Origin: a virus
IMG/VR virus record: IMGVR_UViG_3300046530_000250
Span: 1-45,977 of that record
Direction: 5' to 3' (one strand)
DNA: 45,977 bases
A program made the position numbers and the translations under genes. The notes beneath the pieces were generated by a model. That model saw only the letters and a list, made by a program, of their open reading frames with translations, was not told the origin of the DNA and made no database searches. Shown one piece after another: positions 700 to 45,977 of this stretch (its first letter is position 1; the number at the start of each line of letters is the position of its first letter).

Positions 700-1144
700 T
701 CAGGAATCGCTGGCACTACCTTTTAACCTTTTAGCCAGCGTTTCTCGCTTTGTGAATTTTTCAACCATATGAAAAATGAGAGTTTCAATATCCACTGGTG
801 TTCCAGAAGGACCAACCTCAGCATCTCGAAGCCATTCTTCAACATCGTCTATCAAGACTGGACCATATTTAGTTGTCGAAATCTATTGCGTCCTTTACAC
901 CCGTGAGCAACCCCCTAGTTTGGCCCGCCGAATATTCGATTTTCCGAACCAATTCAATTTCTTGCTTATGTTGCTCGGCAGTACTACGAGATTGATCAAT
1001 GTATTTTATGACTGTATTTTCAAGCCTCTTAACTCCAAGTACTTTTTCGGTCCTAAACTTTTCCTTCCAATCGCCCTCCGCAAGCGCTATCCGTCCACAG
1101 CCACAGCCAGAAGCAGACGCTCGGTTAGGTCCGCGTTCGGCCAT
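700..1144 (-). pseudogene. Frameshifted helical hypothetical gene
   Basis: The leftward frame 1144-869 encodes 91 residues with a strongly helical, charged middle (LENTVIKYIDQSRSTAEQHK) and stops at 869-871. In the next frame the sequence is open from 882 to a TGA at 700-702 and reads like a natural continuation (KYGPVLIDDVEEWLRDAEVG, then HMVEKFTKRETLAKRL). The second frame has no good start, so I read this as one gene of about 148 codons broken by a single-base indel around 872-882. Two tiny overlapping genes are possible. The ATG at 1144 has no clear ribosome site. Function is unknown. Confidence 0.35.
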
Positions 1145-1289
1145 AATCGATCAGTTAACATTCATGGAGCGGCGTATTGACCAGTAGCTAAAGGAGATTC
1201 GTGCAAGTCGCTCATTCCATTCGCTGGACTTGAAGAAGCTGCTCCCTTAGCGTAACCATTAGGCCCTATTCGATCACAGGCAACCGAAA

Positions 1290-1787
1290 ATGACTGAACA
1301 CTCGCTGCACTCTTCATACCGTGAAAAGTTAATCGAGCATTTGCTCATTGGTGAATTACTGAAATTCTCATGGAAAACCAAAGATTTCAGTCTTGAAATA
1401 TCTAAACCTGAGGTTGACAGATCTGGCTACGATATCATTGCCGAAGCAAATGGCATTATTAGACACATTCAACTCAAAGCCACATTCATTGGATCGACTA
1501 CGGCCACACATAAAATCCATATTTCGCTGGCAAAGAAACCGTCCGGCTGCGTAGTTTTAGTTTATTTCAATAATGAAACACTTGAGCTTGGCCCATATTA
1601 TTATTTTGGCGCTGGCCCAGGCCAGCCACTAGCCAGTCTAGAAAATCTAAAAACCGCCAAACACACAAAAGGTGATGCTACCGGCTTAAAACTAGAAAGG
1701 CCAAATATCCGCATATTGAATAAAGGCAGCTTCGTTGAGTTGAAAACCATACATGAGTTATACCATCAACTATTTATAAACGCCTAA
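1290..1787 (+). CDS. Putative PD-(D/E)xK-like nuclease, 165 aa
   Basis: The product has an N-terminal helix with a conserved-looking Glu (YREKLIEHLLIGELL), then SGYDIIAE at about residues 46-53 and RHIQLKA about 10 residues later. The order Glu, Asp on a strand and QxK on the next strand is the usual layout of small PD-(D/E)xK nucleases, with Q in place of D/E. The remainder is a beta-rich domain. I recall similar unannotated proteins in Pseudomonas and other Proteobacteria. The gene is AT-rich against the phage background, has a weak ribosome site (AGG at about 1278) and stands alone between unrelated genes, which suggests transferred cargo. Nuclease activity is inferred from motif spacing only. 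Confidence 0.6.
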   Translation: MTEHSLHSSYREKLIEHLLIGELLKFSWKTKDFSLEISKPEVDRSGYDIIAEANGIIRHIQLKATFIGSTTATHKIHISLAKKPSGCVVLVYFNNETLELGPYYYFGAGPGQPLASLENLKTAKHTKGDATGLKLERPNIRILNKGSFVELKTIHELYHQLFINA

Positions 1788-2119
1788 CAATGGTTAAATC
1801 TGTTAACTTCGCTCTCTTAGGAGGGAGAAGCCAGCTCCTTACCCAGGTCTTGTGGAACGCGAATTGCTACATTCAACTGTGAATTCAATCTATCGACCAA
1901 AGCCCACCCTAATCCATTGGTGAAAGTACAAGCCTATCTGTCCAGCGAGCAAATCCAAGAAAATTTAGCAAATTCGGGGGGTTTAGAATCCTCAAGACAA
2001 TCCGTTGCATAGCCAGCCATCAAAAGATATCATTACGCCATCAGTCAGTCTTTATCGGCTGCCAAAAACTGAGAATTCAAAGTCTCGGAATACCTAAACA
2101 CCGAATTAAAGATCATCGC
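1788..2119. other. AT-rich intergenic region, no gene seen
   Basis: No convincing coding frame. An SD-like AGGAGGGAG lies at about 1820-1828 without a following gene. TTGCTACAT at 1864-1872 is identical to the repeats beside attR. The promoter of the next gene is probably in the AT-rich stretch 2030-2110, but no clear -35/-10 pair can be picked. Confidence 0.4.
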
Positions 2120-3307
2120 ATGGAAAATTTGAATGTGCCACCAGCATCGTCTAATCTTCTCAAAACCGTATGTAATTTATTAGAAGACGGGACTTTATCT
2201 CACTCCTCACTAGACGACATACTCAATAAGCAGCTAAGTGCAGAAGGCGTCAAACGTGCAGACTCCTTTGTTTTTGAGCTGTTATTCAAACGAAGACTAA
2301 AAGCTCTAGAAAAAGACACCACTGACCTGGTAATTTCCTTCAACTGGATCGTTGGTTTCGACAATAAAGACACACCATGCTATTGGTTTAAACTGCAAGA
2401 CGACGACGCCGACTGGAACTGCGCTGACGAAATGCTCGTTAAACACTTACTCAACACAGCCAATCATACAAACAAGGTCCACAAAGCAAAATATTGCCAT
2501 CCAAGCAATATATTCCTTATTAGCGAACTCACCTTGAATGGCTGGACGAATTGGCAAAGCGCTCAAAATTGCCTCAGCATGCTCCCCAACAAAAAAGCAA
2601 AAACAACTATACGCAACACAAACAAAACCAACAGCCAGACTGATAAAAATCACTACAACATCGCTGTTGACTGGCTAACAAAAAAAACCAAACAGGAAAA
2701 CTACTTCAAAGAGGAAATTATAAAAATATCTTTACAGCGCAGATTCATCAACTGCCTATTATCGCCTATCCTTGGTGGCGACCCGGCAGACTTAGATGCG
2801 ATAACGCTCTCAAACAACACCAACATAAAATACCTTGAAATAAAACGAAAATACCCCGCTTATAAATTTAAACATTTCGGAATTGATGAAACGCCACACA
2901 TCAAAATAATGAATTATCTAGCAAAACATCAAGTTGGCATGAGCCATATAATTTTAGTCCCGCCGTGTTGGGAAAAGGAATCCTCTCCAATAAGAACACT
3001 AAACAACGGACTATTCAAAAAGCACTGGACCTGGCTAGGCGCCAACCTAGACAATAACGCCATAACAAATTTAAAAATGCACACTTACGGCTCTAATAGC
3101 GGACAGAGAGACATGGATAGGGACCAGTATGCCATTGACTGGAAGGTAATATTCAACCTAAATAATGGACTACCACTTGATAAGCAAGCAGAACAAAGAA
3201 TTGCTTGCTTCCTCAAAGGTGCATTACCAATACCCTATGCACAGGCAAACTTTAGCGAGCTGAAAAGTCGGTATATTTTAAGCTACAAACATGAATTCTC
3301 ATATTAG
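2120..3307 (+). CDS. AT-rich gene with PD-(D/E)xK nuclease-like core, 395 aa
   Basis: I do not recognise the full protein. In its middle, ILGGDPADLDAITLS is followed by IKYLEIKRKYP: Asp on one strand, then ExK on the next, about a dozen residues apart, as in PD-(D/E)xK endonucleases. A following segment with KHFGID and a helix-strand (MNYLAKHQVGMSHIILVPP) fits that fold. The N-terminal 200 residues are helical and rich in Asn/Lys, and the C-terminus has no known motif. The gene is strongly AT-rich, unlike the phage core, has only a weak ribosome site and no operon partner. It could be a restriction-like or other defence nuclease. Confidence 0.6.
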   Translation: MENLNVPPASSNLLKTVCNLLEDGTLSHSSLDDILNKQLSAEGVKRADSFVFELLFKRRLKALEKDTTDLVISFNWIVGFDNKDTPCYWFKLQDDDADWNCADEMLVKHLLNTANHTNKVHKAKYCHPSNIFLISELTLNGWTNWQSAQNCLSMLPNKKAKTTIRNTNKTNSQTDKNHYNIAVDWLTKKTKQENYFKEEIIKISLQRRFINCLLSPILGGDPADLDAITLSNNTNIKYLEIKRKYPAYKFKHFGIDETPHIKIMNYLAKHQVGMSHIILVPPCWEKESSPIRTLNNGLFKKHWTWLGANLDNNAITNLKMHTYGSNSGQRDMDRDQYAIDWKVIFNLNNGLPLDKQAEQRIACFLKGALPIPYAQANFSELKSRYILSYKHEFSY

Positions 3308-3429
3308 GTGTGAATTCTGAAGACTTGATAACGCGGCTGAATCGCCAATAGCTTTTTGCCCCCATGGCAGGCAGATCCGCCCCAAGCTTTAAGCCTTCTA
3401 ATCTTCCTCCCATCAATAGCCCGGACGGG

Positions 3430-4677
3430 CTATTGAGTAGCTTTGATTCGAGCTACAAAACCATCCACATCTAACAACCAACCAGCCTGATCAGCTGTAT
3501 AAGTAGAGTGGATACCAGCGGGAACAACTAACTGCAAACCATGCGACTGCATTTCTGCCGTTTGCCGCTCACTGATAGCGGCTTCTAGTGTAACAAGATG
3601 CTTTATTGAAACCTTATCAGCTTCGCTAAGGACTTGCCGCCAACGATCTTTACAGGTCGTTTTTGCTCCGAGCATATGAATATTTTCCGGAGGAAACTTT
3701 GGGTCTCTATAAGACTCAAACCCCGGAAAAATAAAATCAGGTTTGGAGTTGTTTTCCGTAGTAAACCCCCTGCCCCGCCCCTGCTCAAAACGCAAGCCGT
3801 GAAGTTTAAATACTTCGCTCAGATAACCTTCAAAAGCATGACCTACTCGAGACTTACGGCGATTCTGGACACTCAATGAGAAACTAATAAACCCATCTAC
3901 ATCATCTCCGTCTTTTCCAAAACCCTCACGAAGTCGATGCTGAACCAAATGCCGCTCATAAATCCTGAACAGCTTTTCCTCATGATCCATCCAGTCCAGG
4001 ATCGCTTGATCGGGGCTAACTAAAGGATCGACCGTTTGTTCGATTGACTCACGGGCATATTTAGAAAATGCAAAAGTAGTTGGAAATTCATTACCACCAA
4101 AAAGAGATACAAGGCGCTCGAGCCAAATATTATCACCAGTTTCAGCGCGACCTGTCTCTATCCCCAAATCTTCCAGCATGAGACGCAATGGAAGATGCAG
4201 CCGAACTGCCTCGACAGAGCCAGCCTTAAACCGGTCATCGACATGATTTATCCCGAAGAGTACGCGCAATTGGCTTTCTATCGTACTGCCAGCAGGTGTA
4301 AAAACCATCAATAGAGATTCGTCGCGCATTTTTGCAACGAGAAGAAAATCTCCCTCGCCGAGCAATTCAGTGACGGCGTTAGTTGAGTAGTAAAGCCTGT
4401 ATTCAGGACTACGATGCAGTTTCTTTCGACGGCAGTCGTACCATGTAACATCTCCGTCTACCGTTTCTGGAGCAACAGACTCGTCGGTGATGTATATCTG
4501 CTTAGTCTTAAATCGATACTCTTGGTCCTTCCCTGGCGTTCCTAAATACTGCTTAAAACCAGCTGCTGGTAGTCCGCCTATTTCATGCTGGTTCGAGCGA
4601 CCGGGGTCAGCATCAACAGCACTCAAATATTTTGCTGCTACACCTTCGAAATAGTCACTAATGCGGTCTGTGAACAT
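3430..4677 (-). CDS. EcoRII-like type II restriction endonuclease (CCWGG)
   Basis: The 415-residue product has the EcoRII architecture: an N-terminal effector domain (about 1-230) and a C-terminal catalytic domain. The catalytic core shows RRKSRVGHAFEGYL (about 273-286), KPDFIFPG with Asp314, and LGAKTTCKDRWRQ with Lys339, Lys343 and Arg345, the EcoRII nuclease signature. EcoRII enzymes cleave CCWGG and need two sites, one acting as effector. Its start overlaps the end of vsr by 20 bp, and the partner methyltransferase lies upstream in the same operon. A 9-bp inverted repeat at 3414-3435 spans the stop codon but lacks a T-run. The family call is strong; the exact target is inferred from the family and the Dcm-type partner. 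Confidence 0.9.
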   Translation of the reverse strand: MFTDRISDYFEGVAAKYLSAVDADPGRSNQHEIGGLPAAGFKQYLGTPGKDQEYRFKTKQIYITDESVAPETVDGDVTWYDCRRKKLHRSPEYRLYYSTNAVTELLGEGDFLLVAKMRDESLLMVFTPAGSTIESQLRVLFGINHVDDRFKAGSVEAVRLHLPLRLMLEDLGIETGRAETGDNIWLERLVSLFGGNEFPTTFAFSKYARESIEQTVDPLVSPDQAILDWMDHEEKLFRIYERHLVQHRLREGFGKDGDDVDGFISFSLSVQNRRKSRVGHAFEGYLSEVFKLHGLRFEQGRGRGFTTENNSKPDFIFPGFESYRDPKFPPENIHMLGAKTTCKDRWRQVLSEADKVSIKHLVTLEAAISERQTAEMQSHGLQLVVPAGIHSTYTADQAGWLLDVDGFVARIKATQ

Positions 4678-5149
4678 TCTGGTTCCAAACGTCTTCGTCT
4701 ATTTGAGAACATTCAGAGCCTTTTATCAGCCAAGAGACGATATGGTCAATCAGCAATGGGGATTTTTTTTTCATGGAACGCACTGCGCACTCCCAAATGA
4801 CGAGCACCCTCCAGCCCAACGCACATAAAGCAGCTACCTGAAGCTCATCCCGAGCCTGATTTTTCCCGATTTTTTCCAGCCAGAATTCGGGGCGTGTTTG
4901 TGGCACTTTGAAATATCGGCAATTGTGGCCGTGCCAAAAGCAACCGTGGATGAAGACCGCTGCTTTGTACTTTGGCAGGACCAGATCTGGCTTACCGGGT
5001 AGGTGTTTCACATGTATTCGAAAGCGAAAGCCCCGCGCATGCAGGGCCTTACGGATCAGCATTTCAGGCGACGTATTTTTGCCCTGAATTCCGGACATCA
5101 TACGAGAGCGCGTTGCTGCATCAACCACGTCAGTCAACGAGTACTCCAT
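4658..5149 (-). CDS. vsr: Very short patch repair endonuclease Vsr
   Basis: The 163-residue product matches Vsr, which nicks beside T:G mismatches made by deamination of 5-methylcytosine in Dcm sites. Visible features: SRMMSGIQGKNTSPE at 15-29 (DNA wedge region), GKPDLVLP with catalytic Asp55, and AVFIHGCFWHGHNC at 64-77 with His68 and His73. The usual FTHGCFW reads FIHGCFW here. Length is normal for the family. It lies 47 bp downstream of dcm and overlaps the restriction gene, so all three are probably co-transcribed. Vsr limits C-to-T mutation caused by its neighbour's methylation. Confidence 0.93.
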   Translation of the reverse strand: MEYSLTDVVDAATRSRMMSGIQGKNTSPEMLIRKALHARGFRFRIHVKHLPGKPDLVLPKYKAAVFIHGCFWHGHNCRYFKVPQTRPEFWLEKIGKNQARDELQVAALCALGWRVLVIWECAVRSMKKKSPLLIDHIVSWLIKGSECSQIDEDVWNQNVHRPH

Positions 5150-5196
5150 TTCGGAGCGCTGCTCGCTCCGATTTCAGAACAGGAAACTTTTGTACC

Positions 5197-6627
5197 TCAC
5201 GCAGGCAGTATTAATTCCCGCTGAGGCTGATCATTGGCAGCTTTTTTTTTGGCCTCCAAAATTCTATCCTTCATCAGTCGAGCCACGGCCTCGAACACAG
5301 GGACCGCAACCGAGTTCCCGAATTGGCGATAAGCTTGGGTATCGGAGACCGGGATAATGAATTTGCTTTCACCTGGCTTGTCGAACCCCATCAGACGGGA
5401 ACACTCGTGAGGAGTAAGTCTTCGAGGACGATTGAGCTGATTCTGTTCACTATTGAAATCCAAATGATCCTTATAACCCCGATCAACCAGAATTTCCGAA
5501 CCGTCCTTGTGGTACCTCGCTGAAAGGGTACGTGCGATGTCATTCGGACGCGTCAATCCAAAACCAAAACCATTGCCCTTCTGACGATGCTTCTCTGCAT
5601 ACTTGTATAGGTAGTCCCAGAGCTTTGGCGTAAGTATGTATTTACTGTCAATGTCCTTTTCCTTATCCAGCAGATCACCAAAGGTTGGGCGATCTTTCGG
5701 TATCAGCTTGTCTATGTCACGCAAGGTGAAGCCACCATGAACATTCAAATCCCGACGAAAACCGACCAGGACGATACGTTCGCGATGCTGTGGAACGAAG
5801 TGCTTTGCATCGATTACTTTCGGATCTGAGCCCTTTGGCGCGTTAACGTCTGCGACCTCATAACCAAGCTCGTCCAAGGCTTCGCAGATGATGCGAAAGG
5901 TGTTGCCCTTGTCATGGCTTTTCAGATTCTTGACGTTCTCCAAAAGAAACGCGGATGGGCGCTTGGCTGCAATAATCCGAGCCACGTCAAAAAACAACGT
6001 GCCCTGAGTTTCACACTCAAAGCCATGTTTTCGACCTAAGGAGTTCTTTTTTGACACACCAGCCAAAGAAAACGGCTGACAGGGGAAGCCAGCGAGGAGG
6101 ACGTCATGATCCGGAATCTCGCGGCGAATATTCTGGTACGCCTCGTCCTCACTTACGTCGGGTCTGTCTGACAACGTAACGGTACGAATGTCCTGATTAA
6201 ACCGGTGACGCGCCGGATCGCAATAGTGGTTCGCCTTGTATGTGCGAACCGCGTATTCATTCCACTCAGATGTAAACACGCACTCGCCACCGATGGCCTC
6301 AAATCCCTTCCGAATTCCACCAATCCCTGCAAACAGGTCAATAAAGGTGAAAGAAGTGTCATGAGTCGGTGGCGAAGGCAAAAGAGATTTCAGGTGTTCG
6401 AATTCTTTATAGAGCAAGCGGGGCTTTGCCTTTCCTTTGACCCAACGATTCACTTTCTCACGGCAATGCTCGGAGCCCACCTCATTAAGTTTCGCAGCAA
6501 GCTGTCCTTGATCATAGATTTCAAGCAGTTTGTGAATCAGTGCACGATCATCTGCATCTGGCTCGGTCAAAGTGGTTGATTGCCCCAATTGAGTAGGTTC
6601 AGGAGTTGCGGCTTCAAAAAGATTCAT
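5197..6627 (-). CDS. dcm: DNA cytosine-5 methyltransferase, Dcm/M.EcoRII type
   Basis: The enzyme methylates the inner cytosine of CCWGG with S-adenosylmethionine. C5-methyltransferase motifs appear in order: [15 protein letters not shown] (motif I, about 95-109), [11 protein letters not shown] with nucleophile Cys183, [12 protein letters not shown] with Glu230, [11 protein letters not shown] (VIII), the target-recognition region, [13 protein letters not shown] (IX) and [11 protein letters not shown] (X). The N-terminal helical extension (about 28-85) is also seen in E. coli Dcm and M.EcoRII. I chose ATG 6627, not TTG 6651, because the ATG has purine-rich ribosome sequences just upstream and family-like length (476 aa). 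It is the first gene of the dcm-vsr-endonuclease operon; a LexA-box match lies about 90 bp upstream. Confidence 0.93.
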
Positions 6628-6718
6628 GGGACCTGCTTTCCTCTGGGTCAAATCTGTGACGAATTGTCACCACTTTATCCCAGTATTCGCCCTTCGTCCA
6701 GGGGCCAGGCACATAATA

Positions 6719-35192: not shown

Positions 35193-36371
35193 TTATTCAT
35201 CTAATGATAGATAATCCTTCCTTGCTAGATTATAGGGAACACTCCTATTCTCACCAAATGCACCTCCATAAACCTTTTCCAAATCCAACATTGGAAAGTC
35301 TTTCTCTCGATGATATTGGAGAACCATAGTTCTATCGACCATAATACCTTCCTTGCCACCGACTACGAATCTCGACTTACTACCTTTGAGCAATTTAATA
35401 GGTAAATGCTCAAACATTTTATACTTGATTAGAAGATTCTTGAATCTGCCTTTATCACAGACGCCATCCAAACAATTTATAAACAACAACGCCAATTCTT
35501 TTGTTGAAAGCTGCGCACGCAAAATGCTGGCATATTTATTTTTGTTTGCCTTCGAAACTACCGACTCATCATATCTATCAATTAGCTTCAGAACTTGATA
35601 CAAATTTCTAAAGTAATGACCAACGACATGATTGTGCTCGCTCTGAATAAAACCATATCTATCTAATACTTGCCTTGGAGAAGCAGAACCTTTAGCAAGA
35701 AACTTTAAAATCTCATCAAATGCAGCTCTCCCCTCAAATACCGTCACTGCGGCTATTGCAGGAGCAGACTCCTCTTTATAAAGCTCATCAGGAAACGACG
35801 AACTTACACTCGCGACGTTCAGAAACTTCTTTATTCCAGAAAGTTTCTTACGGTAGGCATTCTCATCAAGCAGACTTAAGTCAAATTTTATATTATCCGC
35901 AATTTTATGATGCAGCTCGAGAGTATTAAAGAAAGTATTTTCGACGGATTGCGTAGTTAAAGCTTCAGCTGTTTTTTCATACTCAACTCGTGACAATCTT
36001 AAATCGTGTCGCTGTACAACTATCGTCACAATAAGACCAAGAAATGTAAGGAAGGTCAGTATTGGGTTTAAGACCCCACCAAAGAAGTCACCAAAAATCC
36101 CTGCTACGCCCTCATGATTATTTACAAGCCAAACATCCACAACAAACAAAAACAACACCACACAGAGTGCATAAAACATCAAATTAAAGAGCGCCTTGGA
36201 CAGCACGTTATTTTCTTTTTCATTATTGCTCTCGGAAAGAACCTCCACGAAAGACCCATATGATGCATTCTTATAGTAAATAAACGAATACATCATCTGA
36301 GCGAAGGTACTGCAAATTTGAACGAAACCTATTGCCCAAAAAAAAGGGAAGATAAAACCCAAATAATCCAT
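35193..36371 (-). CDS. Putative phage abortive infection protein (putAbiC)
   Basis: A 392-residue membrane protein with hydrophobic segments at about 3-25, 62-83 and 98-118, then a cytoplasmic domain. The segment FGDFFGGVLNPILTFLTFLG followed by an EYEKTAEALTTQSVENTFFN helix and LHHKIADNI is the signature of the putAbiC family, associated with abortive infection. It is clearly AT-rich, converges with cI (11-bp gap) and lies in the usual site for lysogenic-conversion genes. It may protect the lysogen from other phages. Family membership is from memory of the signature. Confidence 0.8.
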   Translation of the reverse strand: MDYLGFIFPFFWAIGFVQICSTFAQMMYSFIYYKNASYGSFVEVLSESNNEKENNVLSKALFNLMFYALCVVLFLFVVDVWLVNNHEGVAGIFGDFFGGVLNPILTFLTFLGLIVTIVVQRHDLRLSRVEYEKTAEALTTQSVENTFFNTLELHHKIADNIKFDLSLLDENAYRKKLSGIKKFLNVASVSSSFPDELYKEESAPAIAAVTVFEGRAAFDEILKFLAKGSASPRQVLDRYGFIQSEHNHVVGHYFRNLYQVLKLIDRYDESVVSKANKNKYASILRAQLSTKELALLFINCLDGVCDKGRFKNLLIKYKMFEHLPIKLLKGSKSRFVVGGKEGIMVDRTMVLQYHREKDFPMLDLEKVYGGAFGENRSVPYNLARKDYLSLDE

Positions 36372-39702: not shown

Positions 39703-40458
39703 GTGAATGAGCTGGCTCTTTTCGCAGGCGCTGGTGGCGGAATACTCGGCGGCCACCTCCTCGGCTGGCGCACCGTCTGCGCCGTTGAGCGTGATGCCTA
39801 CGCCGCACAGATTCTGGCGCAACGACAAACCGATGGACTGCTCCCGCCTTTCCCCATTTGGTCTGACGTGCGCAGTTTTGACGGACGCCCATGGCGAGGG
39901 CTTGTTGACGTGGTTTCGGGAGGATTTACTTGTCAGGACATCTCGGCCGCAGGCAACGGCCTGGGTATCGCCGGCGCCCGCTCCGGACTGTGGCGGCAGA
40001 TGGCACGCATTACCGATGAGGTACGACCGCGCTACATCGAACTGGAAAACTCACCATTGCTTGTGGGAAGAGGACTTGCCGTGGTGCTCGGTGACCTTGC
40101 CGAAATGGGGTATGACGCGCGATGGGGTGTTATCGGAGCGGCTGACTTCGGCGCGCCTCATCAGCGAGATAGGATCTGGCTCATCGCGGAGGATACCAGC
40201 CAGACGATGGCCAACGCCGGTGGCCAGCATGGCAAAAGGGTCCTCCCCTGCCGCACTGACACGCCGATCAGGTGCCGACCACTCAAACGATCAATTGGAT
40301 CACTCAGTGATGGCACTGGATGGTGGCCATCTGAACCCGGAATGGGCCGAGTGGCTGATGGGGTGGCCCATCGGCTGGACCGACTTAAAGCCATTGGCAA
40401 CGGGCAGGTTCCAGTCGTGGCTGCAAGAGCATTCGAATTGCTGTCCGATGGACGATAA
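39703..40458 (+). CDS. Phage DNA cytosine-5 methyltransferase
   Basis: The 251-residue product has C5-methyltransferase motifs: ELALFAGAGGGILGGHLLGW (I), DVVSGGFTCQDISAAG with Cys77 (IV), YIELENSPLLVGRGL (VI), FGAPHQRDRIWLIAE (VIII) and AIGNGQVPVVAARAFELL (X). The usual PCQ is TCQ, a rare change beside the nucleophile. Target recognition is short, as in small phage enzymes. It starts with GTG 39703, with AGGAGG 5 bp upstream. Another frame is open along nearly the whole gene. Confidence 0.85.
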   Translation: MNELALFAGAGGGILGGHLLGWRTVCAVERDAYAAQILAQRQTDGLLPPFPIWSDVRSFDGRPWRGLVDVVSGGFTCQDISAAGNGLGIAGARSGLWRQMARITDEVRPRYIELENSPLLVGRGLAVVLGDLAEMGYDARWGVIGAADFGAPHQRDRIWLIAEDTSQTMANAGGQHGKRVLPCRTDTPIRCRPLKRSIGSLSDGTGWWPSEPGMGRVADGVAHRLDRLKAIGNGQVPVVAARAFELLSDGR

Positions 40459-40474
40459 CCAGGAGGTCGCGTGA
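39707..40474 (+). CDS. Overlapping ORF in the methyltransferase gene, 255 aa
   Basis: This frame starts at ATG 39707, 9 bp from the same AGGAGG that serves the methyltransferase, and ends at a TGA that overlaps the GTG of the next gene (GTGA). It encodes MSWLFSQALVAEYSAATSSA, then SNWKTHHCLWEEDLPWCSVT, LPKWGMTRDGV and NPEWAEWLMGWPIGWTDLKP (from 40334). I recall this pattern as a widespread phage protein family often annotated near or as methyltransferases. Shared DNA codes EPGMGRVADGVAHRLDRLKA in the methyltransferase frame. Openness alone is weak evidence in GC-rich DNA; the motif match and the start/stop coupling are the support. Confidence 0.5.
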   Translation: MSWLFSQALVAEYSAATSSAGAPSAPLSVMPTPHRFWRNDKPMDCSRLSPFGLTCAVLTDAHGEGLLTWFREDLLVRTSRPQATAWVSPAPAPDCGGRWHALPMRYDRATSNWKTHHCLWEEDLPWCSVTLPKWGMTRDGVLSERLTSARLISEIGSGSSRRIPARRWPTPVASMAKGSSPAALTRRSGADHSNDQLDHSVMALDGGHLNPEWAEWLMGWPIGWTDLKPLATGRFQSWLQEHSNCCPMDDNQEVA

Positions 40475-40740
40475 ACACCATTTTTCTCTTGATGGCCCAG
40501 TATCACGGGCAAGCGGTCATCCCCTTGGATCGCGTGTGTGCCGATTACATGAATCTCACCGTCGAGAAATTCAAACACAAGCGACTTGCCGGGGAGATCG
40601 ATATTCCCGTCGTCCGCCTTGGGCCTGAAAGTCAAAAGGCTGGGCTCGGCATTCACTTGACTGACCTCGCAGCCTACATTGATCGACAACATCAACGTGC
40701 AACGGCGGAGCAGAATCAACTAATGGGGAGGCGCACATGA
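40471..40740 (+). CDS. PrtN-like pyocin activator protein (second copy)
   Basis: An 89-residue PrtN-family protein: TIFLLMAQYHGQAVIPLDRV, CADYMNLTVEKFKHKRLAGE, IDIPVVRL and HLTDLAAYIDRQHQRA. The start is GTG 40471 with AGGAGG 4 bp upstream. It is diverged from the copy at 37771, so they probably have distinct targets. Confidence 0.85.
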   Translation: MNTIFLLMAQYHGQAVIPLDRVCADYMNLTVEKFKHKRLAGEIDIPVVRLGPESQKAGLGIHLTDLAAYIDRQHQRATAEQNQLMGRRT

Positions 40741-40892: not shown

Positions 40893-42011
40893 ATGAACAA
40901 CCCTGTAGTCATCGATCTCTTCTCTGGTGTCGGTGGCCTTAGCCTTGGAGCCTCTAGAGCTGGCTTCCACGTTGCAGGTGCATTTGAAATTGATAAATAT
41001 GCAATTGCAACACACAGCATCAATTTCCCACATGCTAACCACGTTCAGGCTGACATAGGTTCATTGACCGGCAAAGAAATCCTCGAACTCTCTGGCTTAA
41101 AGCAAGGGATGCTCGACGGACTTATCGGCGGGCCTCCTTGCCAAGGCTTTAGCACTATGGGGAAACGTGATGACACCGATCCTCGTAACCAACTTTTTTA
41201 TCATTTCTTTAGACTCATTAAAGAAACAAAGCCAAAATTCTTCATCGCCGAGAACGTACCTGGCATTCTTACTGAAAAATACAAAGTGCACGTTCAAACT
41301 GCGTTAGACCTAGTGCGCAAAGACTACACCTTACTTGACCCTATCAAAGTCAAAGCTGATCGTTATGGTGCGCCCACTACACGGACGCGAATATTCTTTA
41401 TAGGATTCAAATCTGAAACACTGAAATACGAACTTAGCGCCGAAATATTTCTACCGCATCCAGAGACTTCTCTGGTTAACGTCAAGTCGGCGCTTGAAGG
41501 ACTGCCGACTATGATCCGTGCAGACTGGCAAGCGGAAGAGCAGTCCTGGAGAAAAGCGCAACCTCATTCCGACAGTGAATTTCACAAGGCGGTGAACGGA
41601 AACATTCCAACAGGTATAGGCTCAGCAAAAGCCATTGAACTGCTTTTTGAAAAACAATTGGTTTCTGGCTGTTTGGGCACACGCCATATACCGGAGGTTG
41701 TGAAACGCTTTGCTCGCTTAAAAGCTGGAGAGGTGGACGCCATTTCCAAAGCCAAACGACTTGATCCAAATGGGTTCTGCCCAACATTGAGGGCCGGGAC
41801 CGGAAGCGACAAAGGTAGCTTCCAAGCTGTGAGGCCGATTCACATGACAGCCCCCCGAGTAATTACTCCACGAGAGGCTGCACGCTTACAGGGTTTCCCT
41901 GACTGGTTCCAATTTCATCCAACCAAATGGCACAGCTTCCGCCAGATAGGAAACAGCGTTAGCCCCATCGTGGGCGAACACATCCTGACATCTATATACA
42001 GATGTTTATAA
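40893..42011 (+). CDS. DNA cytosine-5 methyltransferase of the right cargo triad
   Basis: The 372-residue protein has all main C5 motifs: VIDLFSGVGGLSLGASRAGF (I), GGPPCQGFSTMGKRDD with nucleophile Cys83 (IV), FIAENVPGI with Glu120 (VI), YGAPTTRTRIFFIGF (VIII), ITPREAARLQGFPDWF (IX), FRQIGNSVSPIVG (X). I chose ATG 40893, with GGAA 7 bp upstream; the open frame extends to 40737 but the added text is unlike the family. It converges with the GHKL operon, stops overlapping by 6 bp (TTATAA). It is more AT-rich than the phage core. It may protect against a linked restriction activity. Confidence 0.92.
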   Translation: MNNPVVIDLFSGVGGLSLGASRAGFHVAGAFEIDKYAIATHSINFPHANHVQADIGSLTGKEILELSGLKQGMLDGLIGGPPCQGFSTMGKRDDTDPRNQLFYHFFRLIKETKPKFFIAENVPGILTEKYKVHVQTALDLVRKDYTLLDPIKVKADRYGAPTTRTRIFFIGFKSETLKYELSAEIFLPHPETSLVNVKSALEGLPTMIRADWQAEEQSWRKAQPHSDSEFHKAVNGNIPTGIGSAKAIELLFEKQLVSGCLGTRHIPEVVKRFARLKAGEVDAISKAKRLDPNGFCPTLRAGTGSDKGSFQAVRPIHMTAPRVITPREAARLQGFPDWFQFHPTKWHSFRQIGNSVSPIVGEHILTSIYRCL

Positions 42012-42986
42012 CACCACTCGTGAATACCAAGGGAAGAGCCTGTAGAAGTTAATAAAATTCTCCATCTCTTCCCCTGCCACCCGCTGGTTGGAACCGGCGT
42101 AAAACTGCAGATTGCCATTAATATCCGCTACCGTTGCCCCAGGCAGCATCGATTCAATGTGCACACGCTCCTTTGCGGATAATGCCGGAACACTAATACT
42201 TGTTGGAGTCTTGCACGTTTCGTTAAAAAACGTCCAATGCCTCAACCGAGTCTCAGTTAAAAATGGCTCCACTTCGTCCTCTCGCAGAAGAATTCCCGTC
42301 ATAGTCAGCATTTGTTGTCCATCACTGTATACAAAGGCTGTCAGTGGCTGAACTATCAGTCCTGGATCCCCTTCAAGACCATGCTTCGCTGCAGACATCA
42401 GAGCATGCAGTAAAACATTTGGATAATTCTTAGGAGTTACATCATCAGCTGAAACTTGCGCGGGGCTATAACTACTTAGCTTACGCATGATTGCTCGAGC
42501 ACGATGCTCTCGCAGATCCGAGCCATCACTGGGGTTTCCCAATGATGCGGGATTAGCATTTAGAGTTATCTTAAAAACGTCACCATGCCCAAGCTTTGCC
42601 GTCAGCCGCTGAACCTCCGTCAGCTGCGACGTAATGTCAGGAGTTGCATAGTCAAACCAGACGATACTTCCTTCCGCCGAATCGAACTCATAGTCGCTCA
42701 AAAACTCATCGCTCGACTCATTCCTAAGCTCTATACAGGAGAGCGGCTTATTGAATTTTTGACGCTGAAAAACATTGGGATCCATCTCAAGCGAGACCAT
42801 CTTTGATATCCTCAAAGCGGAATGCAGATGCTTAAAATCCTCCAAGAACGGACCACCAAAACCTATATAACTATAGTCTGAAATATTTCTAAAGCGGCCA
42901 ACGCGCGCAAGTAAATCCACGAACAGATTACGTTCTATCGCCTTATTCTGGCGAAGATGATATGGAATACTCCCCCCTGCACTCAT
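42006..42986 (-). CDS. Rossmann methyltransferase-like protein of the triad, 326 aa
   Basis: The protein opens SAGGSIPYHLRQNKAIERNL, then YSYIGFGGPFLEDF (about 38-51), which resembles the glycine-rich SAM loop, MVSLEMDPNVFQRQKFNKP (acidic residue at the second strand), and SIVWFDYATPD (about 107-117) as a motif-IV-like strand end. So it has a class I methyltransferase-like fold; I recall annotation of relatives as putative O-methyltransferases. The gene starts 2 bp after the GHKL gene, with AAAGGA in front, so the two are co-translated. Substrate is unknown; it could be a non-catalytic nucleic-acid-binding partner. Confidence 0.7.
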   Translation of the reverse strand: MSAGGSIPYHLRQNKAIERNLFVDLLARVGRFRNISDYSYIGFGGPFLEDFKHLHSALRISKMVSLEMDPNVFQRQKFNKPLSCIELRNESSDEFLSDYEFDSAEGSIVWFDYATPDITSQLTEVQRLTAKLGHGDVFKITLNANPASLGNPSDGSDLREHRARAIMRKLSSYSPAQVSADDVTPKNYPNVLLHALMSAAKHGLEGDPGLIVQPLTAFVYSDGQQMLTMTGILLREDEVEPFLTETRLRHWTFFNETCKTPTSISVPALSAKERVHIESMLPGATVADINGNLQFYAGSNQRVAGEEMENFINFYRLFPWYSRVVL

Positions 42987-42988
42987 AC

Positions 42989-44380
42989 TTAAATCCTTTT
43001 CAAGGCTTCATCAAAGCATTTCGCGCCCACATCACCAGGCAAGGCATCCTCATCATCAAAAAAATGAATGCCAAGTGCTTTAATATCTTGAATTGGACGA
43101 GAGAATCGCAGGAATCGATGCTCTTGATTGACGACAGGCATAGGCAATTTCGGTTTGAATTTTTTGCCCTTGATAACACCACGCTGATCCGCGGTCCATT
43201 GATCAGCAGGGATGCTATTCATGATACCGGCCGGACTCGTCGAAACCGCAGTTTGACTAAGCTCCGCTCGTTCTCTCGAGGGCCTCTTCCATTTATTCGT
43301 GAAAGCAGTAAAGATTTTTGTACCTTCCCGCATGAACTCTTTTACAGCTAGATAAAGGTCTGAATTCCCATCTATACCTCGCTTAGTCGTGGTCACCGGC
43401 AACAAAGAAGCATCATTACACTTGAATGTTACTACCCCTGCGATAGAAACAAATTGGGTATGATACTGGGGTACACCCGCCTCACCCCAACCAGTGACTC
43501 GCGTCTTATCGGCATATAGCACAACGCGATCATTACAGATTAGAGTCCAGCCTGCCTTTTCAGTCGACGGGCGACCTGCTAGCGACTCCTCCTCCTCCTC
43601 ATCTGTAGGCAGATCTCTGTAAAAACCTACTGCCAGCGCAATCTCAACGCCTTTATACACACCAGAATAAACGTAAGGCGCAATACCATTACCGGTTGTT
43701 AAAGCATTTTGGTTGTAGATAAAACTGGACGTTTGCGGGAAAATTTCTTCACCATTGACGAAAACATTAAACCCCTTCGATATAATATTTCCATAATAAG
43801 CGGCAATCGACTTCTTCAAATCATCCACAAAACCTGTCTGGTCCGAAAATAACCGCGACACCCCCTCATCCAGGTCTTCAACCCTTAAACTGGTACCCCT
43901 GCTTTCCAATGAGGAATCAGTCACTTCCTCAATAGGTAAATCCCAATCGTCGTCGTCAGCAAGCCACTCAGGGCTAATTACAACCTTGTATGAAGCGTCA
44001 TTAGCATGCGTCTCGATTATGGAAGAACGCCCAAGCTTGAATATCGCCCGCTTCATCCCGATGCCGTAAACACCAACAGTGGGGACATCACTATCGGTGT
44101 CTCTATCGGGGCGACCCAATCGGAAAGCTCTGTTGAGAGCGACGCTCTGAGGTATACCACCGCAATTGTCAATAATCGAAAAAAAATCTTTATCGAAAGT
44201 TATTTCAGCCTTAAATCCTACATATGGCTGATCCGAAGCCAATTCATCTTTCTTCTCTCGCATTGCGCCGTCAACACAGTTGTCGAGCAGGTCGAGAATA
44301 GAATCCTTTAACTCAATATCCCTCGTAAGCATCTCGACAAAAAAGCGCTTTGCGGGGTGGGCGTTGATTCTACCTGCCAT
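42989..44380 (-). CDS. GHKL ATPase (MORC/MutL/Hsp90-like), 463 aa
   Basis: The N-terminal half has the Bergerat ATP-binding fold: N-box SILDLLDNCVDGAM (about 27-40, Asp at the usual Glu position), G1 IIDNCGGIP (about 69-77), G2 VGVYGIGMKRAIFKLG (about 102-117), and RGTSLRV (about 161-167). The C-terminal part has YDLAVKEFM-like and FFDDEDALPGD segments of unknown function. Prokaryotic MORC-like GHKL ATPases are known to be linked to restriction-modification gene clusters. AAGGG precedes ATG 44380. It is the first gene of a two-gene operon converging on a C5 methyltransferase. Confidence 0.85.
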   Translation of the reverse strand: MAGRINAHPAKRFFVEMLTRDIELKDSILDLLDNCVDGAMREKKDELASDQPYVGFKAEITFDKDFFSIIDNCGGIPQSVALNRAFRLGRPDRDTDSDVPTVGVYGIGMKRAIFKLGRSSIIETHANDASYKVVISPEWLADDDDWDLPIEEVTDSSLESRGTSLRVEDLDEGVSRLFSDQTGFVDDLKKSIAAYYGNIISKGFNVFVNGEEIFPQTSSFIYNQNALTTGNGIAPYVYSGVYKGVEIALAVGFYRDLPTDEEEEESLAGRPSTEKAGWTLICNDRVVLYADKTRVTGWGEAGVPQYHTQFVSIAGVVTFKCNDASLLPVTTTKRGIDGNSDLYLAVKEFMREGTKIFTAFTNKWKRPSRERAELSQTAVSTSPAGIMNSIPADQWTADQRGVIKGKKFKPKLPMPVVNQEHRFLRFSRPIQDIKALGIHFFDDEDALPGDVGAKCFDEALKRI

Positions 44381-44486: not shown

Positions 44487-45584
44487 CTAGCGCGAATCTA
44501 CAACTTTTCCTAGCCAGCTCCAGCCTGCATACACGTCGCCGCGCCCCCGCAAATGGGTATAACGACGCAGAGAATTCCAGTCCCGATGCCCGGAAACGCT
44601 CGAGACCCTGGGAATGTCCCAGTCCATCTCGAACAGGCGGCTCACGCCCTCATGCCGCAGGTCATGGAAATGCAGATCCTCAATGCCCAGAAGAGGGCAG
44701 GCACGGGTAAAGGACGCCGACACCGATTTACCGTTGTAGGGAAAAATCTCATCGGCCACTTTTGGCATAGCTTGAACGATCGCCCAAGCTTCATCCGGTA
44801 GATGGCACCAGACGTTGTTGCCGATCTTCTGCCCCGGGTTCTTCATGTCTCGCACCAGGACCGCCTGCCGGACACAGTCGAGATCGTCCCAGCGCATCCG
44901 GGTGATCTCCTCCTGGCGGCGCGTTGAAAAAATCGCAAAGGCGATCAGCTTCGGCATGTCGATCTGAGCTTTGCGCCGGGTCTGCATTTCAAAGTAATGC
45001 CGCATGAGCTTGTCCAGCTCGGCGAGGGTCGGTCGGCGGTTGCGCTCCTTGCTTTTGCTCACCATGCCGAGCTTGCGCAGCACCTTGCGCGCGTCAGGCA
45101 TGGCTAGAGGATCCACCTCGTAGCCCCACGCCGGTCGGGCCACGGACAGCACCGCGCCCAGGTGCGACAGATCGTTGCCGACCGTCTGCGCCTGGACACC
45201 ACCGCCCTCCTCGCTCATCCGCCACTGCGCGAATTCCACCAGCTTCTGGCTGCTCAGTGCCGAATCGTCGAGCTCGCCCAACCAGGTGTCCTTGATCGCG
45301 TTCAGCGTCGCACGTTTGGTTTTGCCCAGCGGCCGGATCCTTTCGTATTCGGTCAAGTACTGCTCGATCATCTTCCTGATCGTCACGCCCTTGCGGTTCG
45401 CGCGCTCGATGGCACCGGGCTCGGCCAGCTCCGTCTCACGGCGCTTGATCCAGGCCTGGGCGACCTGCTTGCGATCGAAGGTCTGGCTTTCCTGATAAAC
45501 TGTCTTCCCGTCCCGATTTATCCGTATCTGCGCCGTGTAGGCCGTCGAATTGTCCTTGCGCTTGCGTGATGTGATCGTGCCCAT
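44487..45584 (-). CDS. int: Tyrosine recombinase / phage integrase
   Basis: The 365-residue integrase has an N-terminal arm-binding domain (TAQIRINRDGKTVYQESQTF), a core-binding helical domain (QYLTEYERIRPLGKTKRATL) and a catalytic domain. Catalytic residues: Arg in FSTRRQEEITRMRW, HDLRHEGVSRLF (His-x-x-Arg), GHRDWNSLRRYTHL with the His and the Tyr nucleophile. It catalyses integration at dusA. It lies about 180 bp from the attR core. The start ATG 45584 has no strong ribosome site, and a TTGCTACAT repeat lies directly upstream. Confidence 0.95.
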   Translation of the reverse strand: MGTITSRKRKDNSTAYTAQIRINRDGKTVYQESQTFDRKQVAQAWIKRRETELAEPGAIERANRKGVTIRKMIEQYLTEYERIRPLGKTKRATLNAIKDTWLGELDDSALSSQKLVEFAQWRMSEEGGGVQAQTVGNDLSHLGAVLSVARPAWGYEVDPLAMPDARKVLRKLGMVSKSKERNRRPTLAELDKLMRHYFEMQTRRKAQIDMPKLIAFAIFSTRRQEEITRMRWDDLDCVRQAVLVRDMKNPGQKIGNNVWCHLPDEAWAIVQAMPKVADEIFPYNGKSVSASFTRACPLLGIEDLHFHDLRHEGVSRLFEMDWDIPRVSSVSGHRDWNSLRRYTHLRGRGDVYAGWSWLGKVVDSR

Positions 45585-45686: not shown

Positions 45687-45977
45687 ATGAATTTCGAAAA
45701 ACCTGAAGAGACTGTTAACACTACCCCATCCCGTTCAGAGCCGTCTCGCCGGTTCAGCGTGGCGCCGATGATGGATTGGACTGACCGTCACTGCCGTTTC
45801 TTCCTGCGCCTGCTATCAAAAAACGCCCTGCTCTACACCGAAATGGTCATCACCGGTGCGCTCCTCAACGGCGACCACGAACGTTTCCTGCGCCACAACG
45901 AAGCCGAACACCCGCTCGCGCTGCAACTCGGCGGTAGCGTCCCGCTGGACTTGGCGGCCTGCGCGCGCATGGCTCAG
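45687..45977 (+). CDS. dusA: tRNA-dihydrouridine synthase A, N-terminal part
   Basis: The frame from ATG 45687 is open to the window end (97 codons). It reads RRFSVAPMMDWTDRHCRFFL then KNALLYTEMVITGALLNGDH and HPLALQLGGSVPLDLA, the DusA FMN-binding N-terminus. DusA reduces uridines in the tRNA D-loop. The first ~20 residues (MNFEKPEETVNTTPSRSEPS) lie on the phage side of the core and replace the original MPLITATTPAPL. Transcription must now come from phage DNA. Confidence 0.93.
   Translation, partial: MNFEKPEETVNTTPSRSEPSRRFSVAPMMDWTDRHCRFFLRLLSKNALLYTEMVITGALLNGDHERFLRHNEAEHPLALQLGGSVPLDLAACARMAQ
45768..45780. repeat. attR core
   Basis: ATGATGGATTGGA, identical to 115-127, encoding MMDW of DusA. 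The downstream sequence is the uninterrupted host gene. Confidence 0.85.

Follow-up and report, generated by a model that had tools for sequence, protein, structure and literature searches.

A recurrent C5 methylase, GHKL ATPase and Methyltransf_35 unit in the cargo slot of a prophage: a candidate defence module

The virus contig IMGVR_UViG_3300046530_000250 of the IMG/VR collection, which we analysed over its whole length of 45,977 nucleotides (the window), carries a prophage with a set of three genes that we call the triad. A C5 cytosine DNA methyltransferase of 372 amino acids (40893..42011, plus strand) converges on two minus-strand genes, the first encoding a GHKL (Bergerat-fold) ATPase of 463 amino acids (42989..44380) and the second a Methyltransf_35 protein of 326 amino acids (42006..42986), here called the partner. 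The open reading frames and clusters were derived with simple scripts, and all three frames lie where an earlier sequence-only reading had placed them, with 6 bp shared by the 3' ends of the methylase and partner genes and 2 bp between the partner start and the ATPase stop (42986/42989). An in-frame ATG upstream at 40737 is possible for the methylase; its homologues begin at the methionine at 40893. The claim that the triad is richer in AT than the phage core also holds, as the G+C contents of its genes are 0.476, 0.465 and 0.461 against 0.613 for the core and 0.604 for the integrase gene. This tyrosine integrase (44487..45584, minus strand, PF00589 at 3.8e-16) lies beside the triad and forms one border of the interval in which it sits, the opposite border being a PrtN-like (pyocin activator) gene (40471..40740, plus strand, PF11112 at 7e-25). 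At the integration-site side the window ends with the 5' part of a plus-strand gene (45693..45977, translation SVAPMMDWTDRHCRFFLRLL...), which we take to be the host dusA. The closest chromosomal relative comes from Pseudomonas lurida (L053), with an ATPase 74% identical to that of the window and an integrase of the same family adjoining it; because of this, and because the record ends in dusA, the host of the prophage is probably a Pseudomonas.

The methylase matches PF00145 in Pfam at 4e-64, has 3g7u as its nearest solved structure (E 3e-137) and is 60% identical to ECs_1953 from prophage Sp10 of Escherichia coli O157 and 48% identical to the enzyme of the Pseudomonas filamentous phage PfAC20. 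The ATPase matches PF13589 (HATPase_c_3) at 2.7e-8 and phrog_20521 at 3.5e-185. Its AlphaFold2 model, from an alignment of 64 sequences, reaches a mean predicted local distance difference test score (pLDDT) of 91.0, and Foldseek matches this model to the N-terminal and middle domains of Hsp90/TRAP1 and GRP94, to the 43K fragment of GyrB and to MORC3. All GHKL motifs are kept, and D33, N34, D37, D71, G74, G75, G103, G106, G108 and K110 are invariant. At the position where the general-base Glu is usual, 98% of the sequences have an Asp (Asp30), a replacement that may make ATP hydrolysis slow or gated.

The partner had been described from the sequence as a Rossmann methyltransferase-like protein with no known role. 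The first part of this description stands, as the protein matches PF20553 (Methyltransf_35) at 1e-88 with 298.1 bits, above the curated cut-off of 27, as well as phrog_19983 at 6e-114, and its AlphaFold2 model, from 97 aligned sequences, has a class I methyltransferase fold at a pLDDT of 94.8. The second part needs amending, in that the protein belongs to a named family with a confidently predicted fold, and its role can be put forward only as a proposal. Both models are of monomers and were made from alignments without rows from annotated records. The best structural neighbour of the partner in Foldseek is Trm1, a tRNA m2,2G26 methyltransferase (3axs, E 3.6e-8, TM score 0.45), ahead of small O-methyltransferases; the two differ in sequence (14% identity) and in motif IV, which is W-x-D-Y in the partner and D-P-F/Y in Trm1. 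A comparison with a three-sequence Trm1 profile in hhalign was not significant (E 0.39), and sequence searches for relatives of solved structure gave weak, implausible matches only, or none with a deep profile. Conserved positions of the family are Y9, R12, K15, R19, Y40, G44, D50, E67, R75, W110, D112, T141, Y220, D222, E273 and P319. Near-invariant across 106 sequences are G44 and E67, which resemble an S-adenosylmethionine (SAM) site, the W-x-D-Y motif (W110, D112) and an N-terminal Y-x-x-R-x-x-K-x-x-x-R. The predicted structure thus suggests a catalytic protein acting on nucleic acid. Pfam finds no domains in the ATPase and the partner other than HATPase_c_3 and Methyltransf_35, and none of the three triad proteins has a nuclease domain in searches of Pfam, PADLOC, NCBIfam and the phrog families or in the models compared by Foldseek.

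The three genes recur together far from this prophage, and the earlier reading of them as a system thus withstands the check for joint occurrence in other genomes. Loci were collected from viral contigs (45 with the partner as query, 69 with the ATPase) and from GTDB, where the ATPase query contributed the best 80 of 392 relatives; dropping ATPases more than 85% identical left 116 loci in a sample that is anchored on the ATPase and so biased towards the query. The partner lies immediately 3' of the ATPase on the same strand in 110 of these 116 loci; in 101 there is a C5 methylase no more than seven genes away, convergent as in the window in 43 and directly upstream and co-directional in 36. 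The typical overlap of ATPase and partner genes is 4 bp, which suggests that the two are translationally coupled. A second sample, anchored on PF20553, comprised ten non-seed loci, one of them from Cyanobacteria; the ATPase is adjacent in all nine loci whose contig allows the comparison, and eight of the ten have a C5 methylase. ATPase and partner have also evolved together, since their distances across loci co-vary with r 0.81 (r 0.45 for ATPase and methylase), and neither value was reached in 2000 permutations. The ATPase and the partner form an inseparable core of which the C5 methylase is the usual companion, and the arrangement, found in over 100 diverse loci, is far beyond chance.

By record titles the triad genes occur in more than 12 phyla, among them Pseudomonadota, Cyanobacteriota, Bacillota, Chloroflexota, Acidobacteriota, Planctomycetota, Nitrospirota, Verrucomicrobiota, Campylobacterota, Latescibacterota, Poribacteria and Calditrichota, and PF20553 is found in about 1% of the genomes sampled from two proteobacterial classes and Bacillota. 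Prophage Sp10 of E. coli O157:H7 Sakai has the triad as ECs_1953-1955, annotated as 'DNA methylase' and 'hypothetical protein', and when 5426 complete E. coli genomes were searched at the DNA level, 209 had a related version of it. PfAC20 carries it as well, and a published account describes this set as an incomplete system for defence in which the cytosine methyltransferase stands alone, as an orphan (PMC11878078). A hidden fourth core gene was considered and rejected: only Vsr (34 of 116 loci), integrases (14) and HNH proteins (6) recur near the loci, and the 141 flank genes that were tallied with Pfam and PADLOC include no such gene. Two haloarchaeal plasmids (L005, L006) hold distant, larger GHKL ATPases of about 620 amino acids, paired with Dam-type adenine methylases.

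A clue to function comes from the interval between int and prtN. With the integrase as anchor, we compared 80 prophages whose integrases are related and found that the distance from int to the first PrtN-like gene ranges from 337 to 5341 bp and that the triad fills this slot in the window alone. In single relatives its place is taken by Septu PtuA (L291), PD-Lambda-5_A (L262), an AriA-like, PARIS-like ATPase (L264), a NACHT-LRR protein (L251), an Mrr-STAND protein (L245) or a C5 methylase with a Z1/MzaC-like helicase (L257). Five others (L235, L241, L258, L260, L266; about 1181-5466) hold a C5 methylase with a HATPase_c_3 ATPase of 661 amino acids and a partner of 411 amino acids, and one (L252:1628-6738) an N6 methylase with a double GHKL/histidine-kinase-like protein, a receiver-like protein and a metallo-beta-lactamase-like protein. 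The 411-residue protein has no Pfam match, its N-terminus resembles the start of Methyltransf_35, and the set to which it belongs is possibly a sister system of the triad; homology to the partner of the window, tried directly, is colinear and not significant (E 0.1). The int-prtN interval is thus a slot for defence cargo in which the triad is exchanged for known defence genes and in which no fewer than three distinct GHKL-methylase sets replace one another, which bears out the earlier view of the place beside int as a cargo site. These contents are the strongest indirect evidence for the presumed role of the triad in defence.

A second clue lies in what happens when genes break. All three genes are intact in 104 of the 126 loci scored. 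The partner is broken and the ATPase and methylase are kept in three (L004, L083, L330), and none of the 126 combines an intact pair with a broken methylase. In the PF20553-anchored sample the only chromosomal pair outside Cyanobacteria that lacks a methylase (L323) is decayed: its ATPase is broken and its partner split. This asymmetry resembles that of restriction-modification. Intact pairs without a C5 methylase nearby are limited to contig-edge cases, five cyanobacterial loci (L061, L063, L070, L071, L331) and the Microvirga plasmid pR24_2 (L003, NZ_CP102847.1), where the pair lies between drmMI and drmA inside a class 1 DISARM (defence island system associated with restriction-modification) operon and thus adjoins a different protective methylase. 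That the pair might be a general part of DISARM was rejected, as this is a single case without a second in the plasmid collection. A full-length C5 methylase is encoded elsewhere in all six pair-bearing cyanobacterial genomes tested, and as an unlinked third component it is suggestive only.

Holding it slightly more probable than not, we propose that the triad serves in defence as a restriction-like module guarded by methylation, with a GHKL clamp that licenses the partner as effector. The C5 methylase would mark resident DNA at its target sites, and the GHKL protein would survey DNA as an ATP-gated dimeric clamp. On DNA that lacks the mark, such as that of an incoming phage, the clamp would engage the co-translated partner, which, dependent on SAM, would act on DNA or RNA as effector or second modifier, so that the invader or the infected cell is halted without a dedicated nuclease. 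A GHKL ATPase that governs an attached effector has precedent, since paraMORC proteins are fused to HEPN RNase domains in restriction-modification neighbourhoods (PMC3710099) and phage defence by VcSduA requires both its GHKL and its nuclease activities (PMC12137116). A more specific form of the proposal is tentative: that restriction here is nuclease-free, the clamp sensing the missing C5 mark and the Trm1-like partner adding methyl groups to nucleic acid (perhaps tRNA or another RNA) rather than cutting DNA, as one of several exchangeable GHKL-methylase modules in the slot.

Several points weigh against this proposal. The link between the partner and Trm1 is one of predicted fold, which sequence profiles do not confirm, and any methylation target or toxicity of the partner is putative. 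The correlation between ATPase and methylase distances is moderate, and the asymmetry of broken genes is based on three to four loci. The five cyanobacterial pairs have no linked methylase, and the link to the methylase elsewhere in the genome is weak because this methylase is common in the group without the pair: it occurs in 63 of 194 cyanobacterial genomes and the pair in four, so that four out of four gives a chance p of about 0.01, uncorrected for kinship.

Among the other explanations, modification without restriction is unlikely, though the best placed. Here the methylase and the partner would set two DNA marks, with the ATPase opening or gripping the DNA, and the marks would shield the prophage and host from other restriction systems or regulate genes. 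The absence of a nuclease from the core, the presence of two proteins of methyltransferase fold, the retention of the SAM-site-like G44, E67 and D112 in the partner, and the carriage of the set by phages, to which marks against restriction are of advantage, all agree with such a role. However, intact pairs are rare without a DNA methylase and methylases outlast a broken partner, which fits a dangerous effector better, and neither the pair inside a DISARM operon nor the slot of defence systems and the wide chromosomal occurrence is readily accounted for by two protective marks.

Less probable again is that the nuclease is borrowed. A MutL-like GHKL protein would bring Vsr, HNH or repair nucleases of the host to DNA without methylation, and the partner would serve as a DNA-binding or recognition subunit. 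MORC/paraMORC and MutL proteins offer precedent for work with nucleases (PMC2292703), a Vsr endonuclease (PF03852) occurs in 34 of the 116 loci and in four of the ten PF20553-anchored ones, HNH_2 adjoins the cassette in five to six loci, restriction endonucleases are occasional, and the prophage itself encodes a Vsr elsewhere (4658-5149). Yet about 70% of the loci have no such nuclease nearby, and no nuclease is a constant neighbour in the 116. Vsr, at about 30% of loci, most simply repairs the T:G mismatches that arise from deaminated 5-methylcytosine, and ordinary C5 methylases have Vsr companions too. The sequence-only statement that no nuclease is visible in the triad is thereby upheld, with Vsr as a refinement; of the two parts of a Type II system, the DNA methyltransferase is present, and no cognate restriction endonuclease was found in the unit or beside it. 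That a solitary C5 methylase has simply been transferred together with two accessory genes whose function is unrelated, such as regulation or repair, is improbable: methylases without a restriction partner are common and the cyanobacterial pairs are unlinked from one, but the near-universal linkage in more than 12 phyla, the varied orders of the same three gene families, and the slot and DISARM contexts all speak against it.

The prophage carries further cargo of this kind. At its opposite end lies a complete, AT-rich EcoRII-type restriction-modification set (3430-6651, minus strand), made up of an EcoRII-C nuclease (3430-4677, PF09019 at 5e-65), the Vsr mentioned above (local profile at 4.7e-56) and a Dcm-like C5 methylase (5197-6651, PF00145 at 1e-78). 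Beside it, at 776-3307, AT-rich open reading frames of 134, 165 and 395 amino acids have no match in Pfam or PADLOC. A putative AbiC-type abortive infection gene is found at 35193-36371 on the minus strand (PF16872 at 2e-24, PADLOC AbiC at 1.5e-14, G+C 38%), and the prophage therefore holds three or more modules that look like defence. Another C5 methylase, short (251 amino acids) and of a kind common in phages (phrog_363 type), lies at 39703-40458 on the plus strand, overlapped in another frame by an open frame of 255 amino acids at 39707-40474.

The proposed module is widespread (about 1% of the sampled genomes and more than 12 phyla) and is invisible to PADLOC, which in version 2.0.0 (2023) has no family for the ATPase or the partner at E up to 1; in the open-access literature we found no functional study of the PF20553 family or of the Sakai gene tags. 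As it travels as a unit through these phyla and lies in a slot for anti-virus genes, it is probably an uncatalogued, restriction-like defence module. Once the triad is recognised, some supposedly solitary C5 methylases become parts of a testable system, and one can ask whether a GHKL ATPase and a methyltransferase restrict phage without a nuclease. With the triad, the MORC-type ATPases of bacteria would also gain a model open to experiment.

Among known systems, MZA contains the anti-phage GHKL ATPase MzaB, to which the ATPase of the triad is weakly similar (NCBIfam, E 0.004), but the score of 15.5 bits compares with a cut-off of 850 and the triad lacks the Z1 helicase and the other Mza proteins. 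DISARM shares with it the pair embedded in the one Microvirga operon, whereas the genes beside the triad of the window include no DrmA, DrmB, DrmC or DrmD. Closer in plan are the loci of HEF_HK, Response_reg_2 and C5 methylase, with or without Vsr (Bellieny-Rabelo 2021, PMC8011034), which the N6 methylase set of the slot (L252) looks like: they too have three parts, a HATPase_c_3 ATPase, a small partner and frequent Vsr. Their partner, however, is receiver-like and their ATPase has an additional histidine-kinase-like domain, in contrast to the methyltransferase fold predicted for the partner of the triad.

The nearest relatives are the MORC/paraMORC restriction-modification operons, for which Iyer, Abhiman and Aravind put forward the theme of GHKL ATPases linked to DNA methylases in 2008 (PMC2292703), in line with the sequence-only reading. 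In the sections of that study on which we draw, ATPases with GHKL and S5/middle domains stand beside C5 methylases, sometimes with Vsr or HNH, spread in a mobile and patchy manner and are assigned a proposed role in DNA superstructure. The triad has the conserved ATP motifs, the S5/middle domain and the methylase neighbour (101 of 116 loci). It differs in having Asp30 rather than Glu as general base and a core without a superfamily 2 (SF2) helicase or a restriction-fold nuclease; SF2 helicases are present in about 70% of MORC operons, and none recurs among the neighbours in the flank tallies of our 116 loci. The Methyltransf_35 partner, constant in the triad, receives no mention in those same sections. 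The earlier suggestion of a new defence or modification system is thus upheld as far as a conserved unit in a defence slot is concerned, with defence itself its probable role, and is tempered as regards novelty: the triad is a variation on the known paraMORC-methylase theme, and what is new in it is a core that dispenses with helicase and nuclease and keeps a constant Methyltransf_35 partner.

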